64,000 nt of DNA from Sphingobacterium deserti (GTDB taxonomy: Bacteria; Bacteroidota; Bacteroidia; Sphingobacteriales; Sphingobacteriaceae): assembly GCF_000757725.1 (NCBI RefSeq), contig NZ_JJMU01000010.1, positions 1 to 64,000 on the forward strand. Direction: 5' to 3'. Positions 37,083 through 52,958 of this stretch are shown in pieces (the stretch's first letter is position 1; every line of letters starts with the position of its first letter). Under the pieces are notes generated by a model, which saw only the letters and a list, made by a program, of their open reading frames with translations, was not told the origin of the DNA and did not search any database. The position numbers were made by a program, and so were the translations under genes.

Positions 37083-38792
37083 TTAATCTACATTGTCATG
37101 CAAGAAAGAGTTGTTTGGGCGGATTTCCGTTTCACCTTCATCAAAGGATAACGTAAACCTCGATACCTGCGATTGTGAAGAATGCGGAACATCTTCCAAC
37201 GATTTCTGACGTCTTTTATATGCAGGTTCGTTTTCAAGCTCTTGCAAACCATTGCTTGATTTCAACTTCATACTAAGCTCTTTCAGACGCAAGATACGCT
37301 CTTTCGTTTTCATAAGCTGATCTTCAAAATCAATCTCTTTGGGCTCTGATGCCGCAGTACTTGGCTCACTAAACGTATTACGCGCGACTGGAGCTTCCGT
37401 CTCAGCTGCCTCTTCATCTTTGCTATTATACACGTCAAAAACGGAAGGCAATTTAAACTCGAACATTGATGACGATGTTTTCAATTCGAAGCCTCCATTT
37501 GCTTGCGCTGGTGTCTCCTCTTCGCTTTCAGGCTCATCAAAACTTAATGTATGGCGTATCACCTGTGGCTCTTCGTTCTTCAATACAGAAGAATGGATAG
37601 GTTTAGGCGACGTAAAAAGATCTGTTTGCGAAGGAGCTGACAAATCATTAGCCGGCGCTGCTGTAACACTATTCTGTACAGGTTTGATATACGTTTGTTG
37701 GTTCGCTGCTGGCTCTTGCTTCGCTACGAATTGATTCTGAACCACTGGCTTAACAAACTGGTTCGCTACAGGTTCAGGTGTTAAGGGTAACGCGATTTTT
37801 TCTTTTTCTTTCTCTTTTACGCGCTCTTCCGCTGTCTGAAAACCTGTGGCAATGATGGTTACAGACAATTCATCTTCGAAGTTTTCGTCGATACAGTTAC
37901 CCCAGATCAAATCTGCTGATAGCCCTGCTTTTTCTTGGATATAATCCGTAACAATAGCAACTTCGTCCATCGTCACTTCTTTTCTACCAGATGTGATGTT
38001 TAACAGAATATAGCGCGCGCCTTCTATCTCATTATCTTTCAATAGAGGCGAGGCTAAGGCACCTGTTACTGCTTCAATAGCGCGATTCTCACCTGTAGAG
38101 ATTGCATTACCCATGATTGCAACACCGCTATCGTTCATTACGGTGCGCACATCTTTAAAATCGACGTTTACATACCCCGGAATCGTGATAATTTCAGCTA
38201 TACCTTTTGCTGCCGTTGTTAAAATATCATCGGCTTTTGCAAACGCTGCAGTCATTGTTAAATTGCCAAATATCTCGCGTAGACGATCGTTGGAAATTAC
38301 TAAATAGGAATCTACATACTTCCGAAGTTCTTCCAAGCCTTCTTCAGCCTGTGAACGACGTCTTTTACCTTCAAATGTAAAGGGCGTTGTGATGATCGCC
38401 ACAGTAAGGATACCAAGTTCTTTGGCAGCTTTGGCCAATACCGGACTCGCTCCAGTACCTGTACCACCGCCCATACCAGCTGTTATAAACAACATCTTGG
38501 TATTTGTACCCAACATACGCTTGATATCTTCAATACTTTCTATTGCAGAATTCTCGCCTACATCAGGATCAGCACCAGCGCCCATTCCCTCTGTTAAACT
38601 CGCTCCCAATTGTACCTTATTCGGGATAGGACTTAACTCCAGCGCCTGCGCATCTGTATTACAAACGATGAAATCTACACCACTTATCCCTTGCTTGTAC
38701 ATGTGATTGACGGCATTGCCCCCGCCACCACCAACACCGATAACCTTAATTATCGATGATTGTTCCTTTAACATTTCAAATTGTATCGACAT
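37083..38792 (-). CDS. ftsZ: Cell division protein FtsZ
   Basis: Tubulin-like GTPase that polymerises into the Z-ring. The 569-residue protein has the N-terminal nucleotide-binding VIGVGGGGGNAVNHM, the tubulin signature GGGTGTGASPVLAK near residue 105, and NDRLREIFGN plus FADVDFKDV-type T7 region (NVDFKDVRTVMNDSG). The core ends near residue 325; an unusually long, Pro/Gln/Ala/Glu-rich linker of about 230 residues follows, ending FLHDNVD as in other Sphingobacteriales. It is the last gene of the dcw row. The 139 bases before it contain three DnaA-box-like sites. Confidence 0.97.
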   Translation of the reverse strand: MSIQFEMLKEQSSIIKVIGVGGGGGNAVNHMYKQGISGVDFIVCNTDAQALELSPIPNKVQLGASLTEGMGAGADPDVGENSAIESIEDIKRMLGTNTKMLFITAGMGGGTGTGASPVLAKAAKELGILTVAIITTPFTFEGKRRRSQAEEGLEELRKYVDSYLVISNDRLREIFGNLTMTAAFAKADDILTTAAKGIAEIITIPGYVNVDFKDVRTVMNDSGVAIMGNAISTGENRAIEAVTGALASPLLKDNEIEGARYILLNITSGRKEVTMDEVAIVTDYIQEKAGLSADLIWGNCIDENFEDELSVTIIATGFQTAEERVKEKEKEKIALPLTPEPVANQFVKPVVQNQFVAKQEPAANQQTYIKPVQNSVTAAPANDLSAPSQTDLFTSPKPIHSSVLKNEEPQVIRHTLSFDEPESEEETPAQANGGFELKTSSSMFEFKLPSVFDVYNSKDEEAAETEAPVARNTFSEPSTAASEPKEIDFEDQLMKTKERILRLKELSMKLKSSNGLQELENEPAYKRRQKSLEDVPHSSQSQVSRFTLSFDEGETEIRPNNSFLHDNVD

Positions 38793-38884
38793 ATATAACC
38801 CTATTTAACTCTTGCTAAACCACTTAGAAATCCCCCTACAGGTTCAACAATTCAAATGTAATAATACCAATTTATTCACCATAG

Positions 38885-38930
38885 TTTTCCACATTTGTTA
38901 AAATGTGGAAAAAACATGCATTGTGGAAAA
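38885..38930. promoter_or_regulatory. Three DnaA-box-like 9-mers, two forming a 12-bp hairpin, between ftsA and ftsZ
   Basis: TTTTCCACA is at 38885-38893 on the plus strand, and its complement TGTGGAAAA at 38904-38912 and 38922-38930. The first two lie in a perfect inverted repeat TTTTCCACATTT/AAATGTGGAAAA with a GTTA loop. TTTTCCACA fits the DnaA-box consensus TTWTNCACA. The third box ends one base before the ftsA stop codon. The element could link ftsZ expression to DnaA, or act as an RNA hairpin; the T-tract expected of a terminator is missing. Confidence 0.5.
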
Positions 38931-38931
38931 C

Positions 38932-40344
38932 TTACTTTTTTCCTATAAATGTATCGTCATCAATTCCCGCATCGTCCTTGATAAAATCAGATAGAATTTT
39001 GGTGAACCAACTCTCCTTTTTACGCTTCTCTTCAGCGATTTCAGTCACTTTTTCTTTTGTTACTTTCTTGGTAACCATCTCTTGTTGCGTTGCTTCATCT
39101 TCTTCCATCGTCTGAACGCCTTTTATCAATAACCCAATAGACGTTGCATACATAGGGCTTTTGAGCTCTTCCAATGCTTGCTTGTTTAGCATCTCCGTCT
39201 TAGCTAGGTACTCATTAGGATAACCTATCCTGCAGCCAATACCTGTAATGTACTCAACGAGTTGTACCAAATGTTTCAGCTGCGCACCACCGCCAGTGAT
39301 TACAATACCAGCGATCAATTTATCTTCATAACCAGAGGACTTAATTTCATAGTAAACATGTTCAATGATTTCCTCCATCCGTGCTTGAATAATATAGGCC
39401 AAGTTTTTTACGGAGATCTCCTTAGACTCACGCCCACGGATTCCTGGTACACAGATCACTTCGTTATCTTTATTCTCGTCTGCCAATGCCGAACCATAAC
39501 GCACTTTAAGCTGCTCAGCCTGATTACGCAGTACGGAACACCCTTGTTTAATATCCTCCGTTACAATATTTCCACCTAAAGGAATCACGGCAGTATGACG
39601 AATGATACCCTCATGGAAGATAGCCACATCTGTAGTACCGCCGCCAATATCTACCAACACAACACCAGCAGTTTTTTCCTCTTCATCCAACACAGCCTCA
39701 GATGATGCAAGAGGTTCCAAAACCAAAGAAGACACTTCAAGATCCGCATTATCCACACAGCGTTTAATATTACGAATATCTGTTACACGCCCTGAAATGA
39801 TGTGGAAATTAGCTTCTACCCGACGTCCGGCCATCCCGATAGGCTCTTTAATCCCAGGTTCATTATCGATAGTGAATTCCTGTGGCAACACATGGATTAT
39901 CTCCTCACCAGGAGGAAGAACCAGCTTATACATATCCGAAATCAATTGTTCAACATCCAAACGCCCCACCTCATCGTAATCGCGCTTAGTCAAGATACCA
40001 CGGTGCTGGATACTTTTGATGTGCTGTCCGGCAATACCTACGTTGACAACCTTTATATCTACGTTGGATTGGGATTCAGCGATGGTCACGGCCTCGCGTA
40101 TGCTACTTACCGTTTTTTGGATGTTGGCAACCACCCCACGATTCACACCTGAAGATTCGGCTTTCCCCACCCCCAAAAGTTCAATCTTGTTCGTTCCGCT
40201 ACGACGACCGACTGTTACACAAATCTTCGTTGTGCCGATATCCAATCCAACGATGATCGGATTCTCCTTTTCGTTTTCTGCTAATCTTGGTTTCATATGC
40301 TGTGTATTTCTTGCTGTGTATATTTTATTTACTGTGTTCTTCAA
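38932..40344 (-). CDS. ftsA: Cell division protein FtsA
   Basis: Actin-like ATPase that tethers FtsZ to the membrane. The 470-residue protein shows VGLDIGTTKICVTVGRR (phosphate 1), VLVDIGGGTTDVAIF (phosphate 2) and GIVITGGGAQLKHLVQLVE (adenosine). The C-terminus SWFTKILSDFIKDD is a likely amphipathic membrane-targeting helix. Its ATG overlaps the ftsQ stop by four bases (ATGA), which supports this start over the internal Met at codon 17 (MKPRLAENEK). Confidence 0.96.
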   Translation of the reverse strand: MKNTVNKIYTARNTQHMKPRLAENEKENPIIVGLDIGTTKICVTVGRRSGTNKIELLGVGKAESSGVNRGVVANIQKTVSSIREAVTIAESQSNVDIKVVNVGIAGQHIKSIQHRGILTKRDYDEVGRLDVEQLISDMYKLVLPPGEEIIHVLPQEFTIDNEPGIKEPIGMAGRRVEANFHIISGRVTDIRNIKRCVDNADLEVSSLVLEPLASSEAVLDEEEKTAGVVLVDIGGGTTDVAIFHEGIIRHTAVIPLGGNIVTEDIKQGCSVLRNQAEQLKVRYGSALADENKDNEVICVPGIRGRESKEISVKNLAYIIQARMEEIIEHVYYEIKSSGYEDKLIAGIVITGGGAQLKHLVQLVEYITGIGCRIGYPNEYLAKTEMLNKQALEELKSPMYATSIGLLIKGVQTMEEDEATQQEMVTKKVTKEKVTEIAEEKRKKESWFTKILSDFIKDDAGIDDDTFIGKK

Positions 40345-52870: not shown

Positions 52871-52910
52871 TGTCTATGACCCTAATCAAATTTTAAATGT
52901 AAAAGTATAC

Positions 52911-52932
52911 ACTTTCTCCCACTTTCCCCCAC
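52911..52932 (-). promoter_or_regulatory. MraZ operator (10-bp repeats) upstream of mraZ
   Basis: On the minus strand the sequence reads GTGGGGGAAA-GTGGGAGAAA-GTG, that is two full and one partial 10-bp repeats. These match the AAAGTGGGAG / TGGGA-N5 type boxes bound by MraZ. It lies about 40-60 bases upstream of the mraZ ATG, a position suited to self-control of the dcw operon. Confidence 0.8.
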
Positions 52933-52949
52933 TATACCACACAAAAAAG

Positions 52950-52958
52950 TTTTCCACA
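52950..52958 (+). promoter_or_regulatory. DnaA-box-like TTTTCCACA upstream of mraZ
   Basis: The same 9-mer found between ftsA and ftsZ lies about 20 bases beyond the MraZ boxes, so both ends of the dcw cluster carry it. Confidence 0.4.

Follow-up and report, generated by a model that had tools for sequence, protein, structure and literature searches.

Conserved DnaA-type boxes upstream of ftsZ in the Sphingobacteriaceae and their possible part in ftsZ transcription

The ftsA–ftsZ gap and its boxes

The window—the whole stretch of Sphingobacterium deserti DNA analysed here, 64,000 nucleotides long—carries ftsA and ftsZ side by side within the dcw cluster, with mraZ at the head of that cluster (Table 1). 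ftsA and ftsZ are separated by 139 bp, and this gap holds three copies of the 9-mer TTTTCCACA, spanning 46 bp overall. An initial annotation of this DNA had reported a trio of such sites in 46 bases between the two genes, and they lie exactly where it placed them; a fourth site, box D, was absent from its account and is a complete box in many relatives. Read along the coding strand, the order is the ftsA stop codon, a single G, box A (TTTTCCACA), nine bases, box B (TTTTCCACA), ten bases, box C (TGTGGAAAA), four bases, the degenerate box D (GGTGAATAA), the element TACATTTG, about 60 bp, and the ftsZ ATG. Boxes A, B, and C fit the DnaA box consensus TTWTNCACA, with D degenerate in the window, and boxes B and C form a perfect 12-bp inverted repeat with a loop of 4 nt. 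The mechanically called open reading frame of ftsA begins with TTG; the ATG at 40296 was chosen instead.

Table 1. Features of the window and of the likely replication origin. Coordinates are window positions unless a locus or contig is named.
Feature	Coordinates	Strand	Remarks
Box A	38922..38930	-	TTTTCCACA; 1 base past the ftsA stop codon
Box B	38904..38912	-	TTTTCCACA; 9 bp from A, orientation as A
Box C	38885..38893	+	TTTTCCACA on +; faces box B over 10 bp
Box D	38872..38880	+	TTATTCACC, degenerate; 4 bp from C toward ftsZ, near the expected -33 region
Inferred -7 element	38853..38860	-	TACATTTG; fits consensus TAnnTTTG
ftsZ CDS	37083..38792	-	ATG 38790-38792; FtsZ match in all genomes searched
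ftsA CDS	38932..40296	-	stop 38932-38934; start ATG at 40296
MraZ-box array	52910..52942	-	GTG repeats, 10-bp period; adjoins the 52950..52958 box
DnaA-type box at mraZ promoter	52950..52958	+	coding strand TGTGGAAAACTTTTTT
Likely oriC	L062 1078-1571 (G000:C24 about 114577-115070)		nadB-nadA intergenic, four conserved DnaA-type boxes

The window contains six copies of TTTTCCACA against 1.02 in shuffled sequences (0 of 100 shuffles get to six), while the whole genome contains 103, against 108 for a reversed control pattern. As the 9-mer is enriched in the window and not in the genome, the signal is the cluster rather than the word; simple arithmetic from the genome-wide density gives about 4e-5 expected three-box clusters of 46 bp or less per genome.

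Conservation in the genus, the family, and the class

Within the genus, the facing pair TTTTCCACA-N8..12-TGTGGAAAA occurs in 90 of 94 genomes, once per genome, and the listed loci adjoin ftsZ. Three exceptions differ by a single T-to-A swap at position 3, which turns box C (G029 and G086) or box B (G084) into TTATCCACA—a swap that oriC likewise tolerates—and the fourth, G076, was left out of the readable set as its contig stops short of the site. Counting the swap variants, the facing pair is kept in 93 of 93 readable genus genomes. At least two matches to TTWTCMACA stand upstream of ftsZ in all genus genomes (59 distinct) and in 35 of 40 family genomes, a state reached by a fraction of about 0.0003 of shuffles.

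The wider family was sampled with 40 genomes from ten further Sphingobacteriaceae genera (L111-L150). These genera carry the same ordered array, A-B-C-D, and its spacing to a promoter-like motif, TTAC, is fixed. In the family gaps, box A is mostly TTTTCAACA or TTTTCCACA, boxes B and C are separated by 10 or 11 bp, and box D follows 4 bp further on, often as a complete box (TGTGGAAAA or TGTTGAAAA). The inner boxes are the most uniform: B is TTTTCCACA in 88 of 91 family-wide sequences and C in 83 of 91, the remainder of C being TTATCCACA, TTATTAACA, or TTACCAACA; across relatives box A may be TTTTCAACA, TTTTCCACA, TTATCAACA, TTATCCACA, TTATTAACA, or TTATTCACA. All 40 family genomes hold at least one TTWTCMACA, with the full facing pair missing in nine. 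The initial annotation had named conservation upstream of ftsZ as a check, and the sites are indeed kept in the genus and in the other genera of the family. Chance as the origin of the cluster is ruled out by the genus, family, and all-genome data taken together.

The array stops at the family boundary. Of 40 genomes that each represent a different one of the other families of the class, none has TTWTCCACA within 300 bp upstream of ftsZ, and three have one TTWTCMACA there; hence the ftsZ array is either an invention of the Sphingobacteriaceae or has survived in this family only. The proposal that the sites might serve Bacteroidota at large is ruled out by this count and gives way to a trait limited to the Sphingobacteriaceae. 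A scan of all genomes for the facing pair returned at least 118 loci, with FtsZ just downstream in 83 of those listed; the matches came from Sphingobacterium, Pedobacter, Mucilaginibacter, Olivibacter, Parapedobacter, and others. The facing pair was also seen, with differing spacers, in related cyanobacteria of the genus Nodosilinea (L252, L285, L307) and in two Pseudomonas genomes (L237, L294).

Unexpectedly, the mraZ promoter also carries a box of this type, one per locus, in all 16 genus dcw loci and all 20 family loci. It is mostly TGTKGAAAACTTTTT and is followed a few bases on by MraZ-type GTG repeats with a 10-bp period. MraZ boxes are described as direct repeats of AAAGTG[T/G] (PMC8475190). 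In the rest of the class (L349-L408), 32 of 40 regions upstream of mraZ contain TTWTYMACA, where shuffled sequences give a mean of 3.3 and a maximum of 8, and 23 of 40 contain the stricter TTWTCMACA (shuffle mean 1.2). Most of these boxes have the opposite orientation, and typically 2-3 bp lie between the end of the box and the first GTG repeat after it. The widespread box in the class is the one at the mraZ promoter, and the ftsZ array is restricted to the family. An element this near the MraZ boxes could belong to the MraZ operator; what speaks against this is that it shows the T/A, C/T, and C/A swaps seen in oriC and flips its orientation between lineages. Since the pattern of a box beside MraZ repeats spans the class, a composite operator for DnaA plus MraZ is plausible at the mraZ promoter. 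One mraZ match (G022:C31:49791-50249) contains an in-frame TAA, and may be a pseudogene or a sequencing error.

Relation to oriC, the dnaA promoter, and the ftsZ promoter motif

The origin of replication was located without the use of ftsZ, from the nadB-nadA box cluster and the GC-skew minimum. In a 180-kb scan of a complete genome (G008), the skew minimum falls about 50 bp or less from the nearest nadB-nadA box; in G055 it is 2.8 kb away from nadA, its distance to the box cluster being about 0.3-0.6 kb, and in G018 it is flat and 4.7 kb from nadA. The source genome has an equivalent nadB-nadA box cluster with a local skew turn. The distance from oriC to dnaA is about 118 kb in the source genome and mostly about 5-50 kb in relatives. 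Alignment of oriC from 30 genomes yields four homologous boxes that alternate by species—TTTTCCACA/TTATCCACA, TTATCCACA/TTATCAACA, TTATTAACA, and TTATTCACA—and the 118 box instances from these genomes were used to build an oriC profile, which the ftsZ boxes match position by position. Upstream of dnaA (L061 1213-1221, L031-L060) a conserved pair of boxes stands face to face, about 72 bp apart, and shows the same oriC-like alternation; in the genus this pair is probably an autoregulatory site.

The likeness extends to which letters vary. At oriC, the dnaA promoter, ftsZ box A, and mraZ, the boxes are near-invariant at positions 1, 2, 4, 7, 8, and 9, and vary at positions 3 (T/A), 5 (mainly C/T), and 6 (C/A). 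When a matrix trained solely on oriC was run over the dcw cluster (14 kb) in 16 genomes, the only recurrent matches were at ftsZ (16/16) and mraZ (16/16), with zero to two other matches per genome. Because the oriC and dnaA-promoter boxes share both letters and tolerated swaps with the ftsZ boxes, we assign the latter to the DnaA type of the genus. The description of the sites as DnaA-box-like in the initial annotation thus stands as regards letters and swaps, with binding itself a prediction. The DnaA of the source genome has an intact domain IV signature, GGRDHSTV, in an open reading frame containing ...SIGSFFGGRDHSTV....

The facing pair is also found beside dnaA itself in Lactiplantibacillus (L281, L282, L287, L290), with TTATGCACA nested in the spacer. 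These four matches sit amid further DnaA boxes, which lends independent support to the facing pair as a DnaA arrangement. At four more pair loci away from ftsZ, a dnaA-like gene lies no more than 8 kb away.

The array is also phased with a candidate promoter. The consensus of the Bacteroidota -7 promoter element is TAnnTTTG (PMC7366714). We turned to this consensus as a sigma-70 consensus scan was uninformative: it returned one promoter-like site only, which lay on the wrong strand and was no better than chance. The motif [AT][AT]TTAC starts 21 nt past box C in 84 of 88 genus and family sequences, and over 11 genera box C and the TTAC/-7 motif keep a rigid spacing. On the strength of the consensus, the TTAC motif is the presumed ftsZ promoter; its rigid phasing with box C is the strongest hint that the boxes have a role in ftsZ transcription.

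Proposed DnaA control of ftsZ and competing explanations

The sequences show where the sites are, that they are conserved, that they match the boxes at oriC and the dnaA promoter, and that they stand at a rigid distance from the motif; from this we infer that DnaA is the binder, the motif a promoter, and the outcome a transcriptional response. In the proposed mechanism, an internal ftsZ promoter has the array immediately upstream of it, with A and B pointing one way and C and D turned toward them, and box D would lie close to, or overlap, the -33 region of that promoter. DnaA—most likely in its ATP form—would bind cooperatively, occupying the strong inner pair B-C first and the weaker A and D next, such that ftsZ transcription would be tuned by the level or activity of DnaA and FtsZ supply would track the initiation cycle. 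The single mraZ box by the MraZ operator would place the first dcw promoter under DnaA too, and DnaA most likely binds both dcw promoters. Since box D crowds the -33 region, repression at excess DnaA is marginally favoured over activation. We put the probability that the four boxes are bound by DnaA and tune transcription from the internal ftsZ promoter at roughly two-thirds; the figure is held there because E. coli has DnaA boxes upstream of ftsZ that are irrelevant to ftsZ transcription, and the functional step should not be assumed here.

Two features count against DnaA: the inner pair is almost always TTTTCCACA, which is stricter than the boxes of oriC, and the near-fixed B-C spacing of 10 or 11 bp would equally suit a dimeric regulator. 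The main rival follows from this invariance—another dimeric transcription factor, distinct from DnaA, may read TTTTCCACA-N10-TGTGGAAAA as a single operator—and it gains from the exact pair occurring about once per genome. We nevertheless think it unlikely. Boxes A and D and the mraZ box are solitary or otherwise spaced and oriented, and vary as oriC boxes do; identical 9-mers stand at oriC and the dnaA promoter; and the inner-pair variants are mostly the very swaps found at oriC. MraZ, the known repressor of the dcw cluster, is a far less probable binder of the ftsZ sites, even though a DnaA-type box adjoins its array at mraZ and its own boxes likewise contain GTG(G). Its GTG repeats keep a 10-bp period, whereas the ftsZ boxes are spaced 13-20 bp apart in two orientations; about 40% of the boxes next to mraZ are TGTTGAAAA and have lost GTGG; and boxes of this type occur at oriC and dnaA too. 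With both period and letters wrong, an MraZ operator at ftsZ was ruled out.

The inverted pair had also been described as a hairpin, and the inversion is real; it is best read as two facing DNA sites. The alternative is an RNA hairpin—an attenuator, terminator, or processing site—within the mRNA of ftsA and ftsZ. The window sequence does fold, at -11.8 kcal/mol, yet among 57 distinct sequences nearly all box changes are uncompensated, the lone paired double change (position 6) is equally explained by box variation, the three inner pairs of the spacer are present in just 17, 30, and 24 of the 57 (about 30-53%), and boxes A and D fall outside the stem. A terminator scan found no terminator-like site and no U-run after the stem at the B-C pair, and the best Rfam match there scored 18.1 bits, the cut-off being 80. 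An RNA structure, the least credible of the explanations, is ruled out by covariation, the terminator scan, and Rfam. The boxes might instead bind DnaA for titration or nucleotide exchange and leave ftsZ uncontrolled. This is improbable, though datA and DARS are small DnaA box clusters too; clustering by itself is indecisive for membership in either, which also calls for an IHF/Fis context and an effect on the nucleotide state of DnaA. Such a role leaves unexplained why the array keeps a rigid distance from the ftsZ promoter motif across 11 genera; this phasing, together with the second conserved box at the other dcw promoter, speaks for promoter control.

The involvement of DnaA at division genes is already known. 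In Caulobacter crescentus, the ftsZ promoter is bound by DnaA in vitro and is DnaA-dependent, and activation of ftsZ by DnaA has been proposed (PMC8203912). The Sphingobacteriaceae case resembles this in having DnaA-type boxes at the ftsZ promoter proper and in a possible link between the initiator and FtsZ synthesis; it differs in belonging to an unrelated lineage, in its ordered four-box array with an inverted core, in the mraZ box, and in that binding is predicted. E. coli also has several DnaA boxes upstream of ftsZ within its dcw cluster—three within ftsQA, without control of ftsZ transcription according to the part of PMC8203912 that cites Masters 1989 and Smith 1996—but these are intragenic, whereas the boxes described here form a cluster between genes, keep phase with a promoter motif, and persist across a family. 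The same source, in its passage citing Goranov 2005, has DnaA binding the Bacillus subtilis ftsL promoter (PMC8203912), likewise a division-cluster promoter, though in another gene and phylum; here, binding is a prediction. The MraZ boxes at the dcw head of E. coli and Mollicutes (PMC8475190) have their counterpart in the neighbouring element at the mraZ promoter here; being GTG repeats with a 10-bp period, they differ from the ftsZ array in sequence and geometry. A search covering part of the literature returned no earlier report on DnaA boxes with mraZ or dcw, or on Bacteroidetes ftsZ promoters; as far as that search shows, the lineage, the promoter-phased four-box array with its conservation throughout the family, and the mraZ box paired with it are new.

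A broader circuit can be sketched for the class Bacteroidia, in which DnaA and MraZ would act on a composite operator at the dcw head in most families, the Sphingobacteriaceae would have added the ftsZ array, and initiation would set the supply of the division machinery; this we regard as tentative, with the odds somewhat against it. DnaA-type boxes are kept at both dcw promoters examined, in fixed geometry, throughout the family, and one of them across most of the class. The question they bear on is how bacteria couple the start of replication to synthesis of the division ring, and the array offers a concrete, mutable site for testing such coupling in culturable Sphingobacterium and Pedobacter. 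A conserved row of DnaA-type boxes before ftsZ suggests that, in this family, the start of replication may be wired to synthesis of the division machinery.
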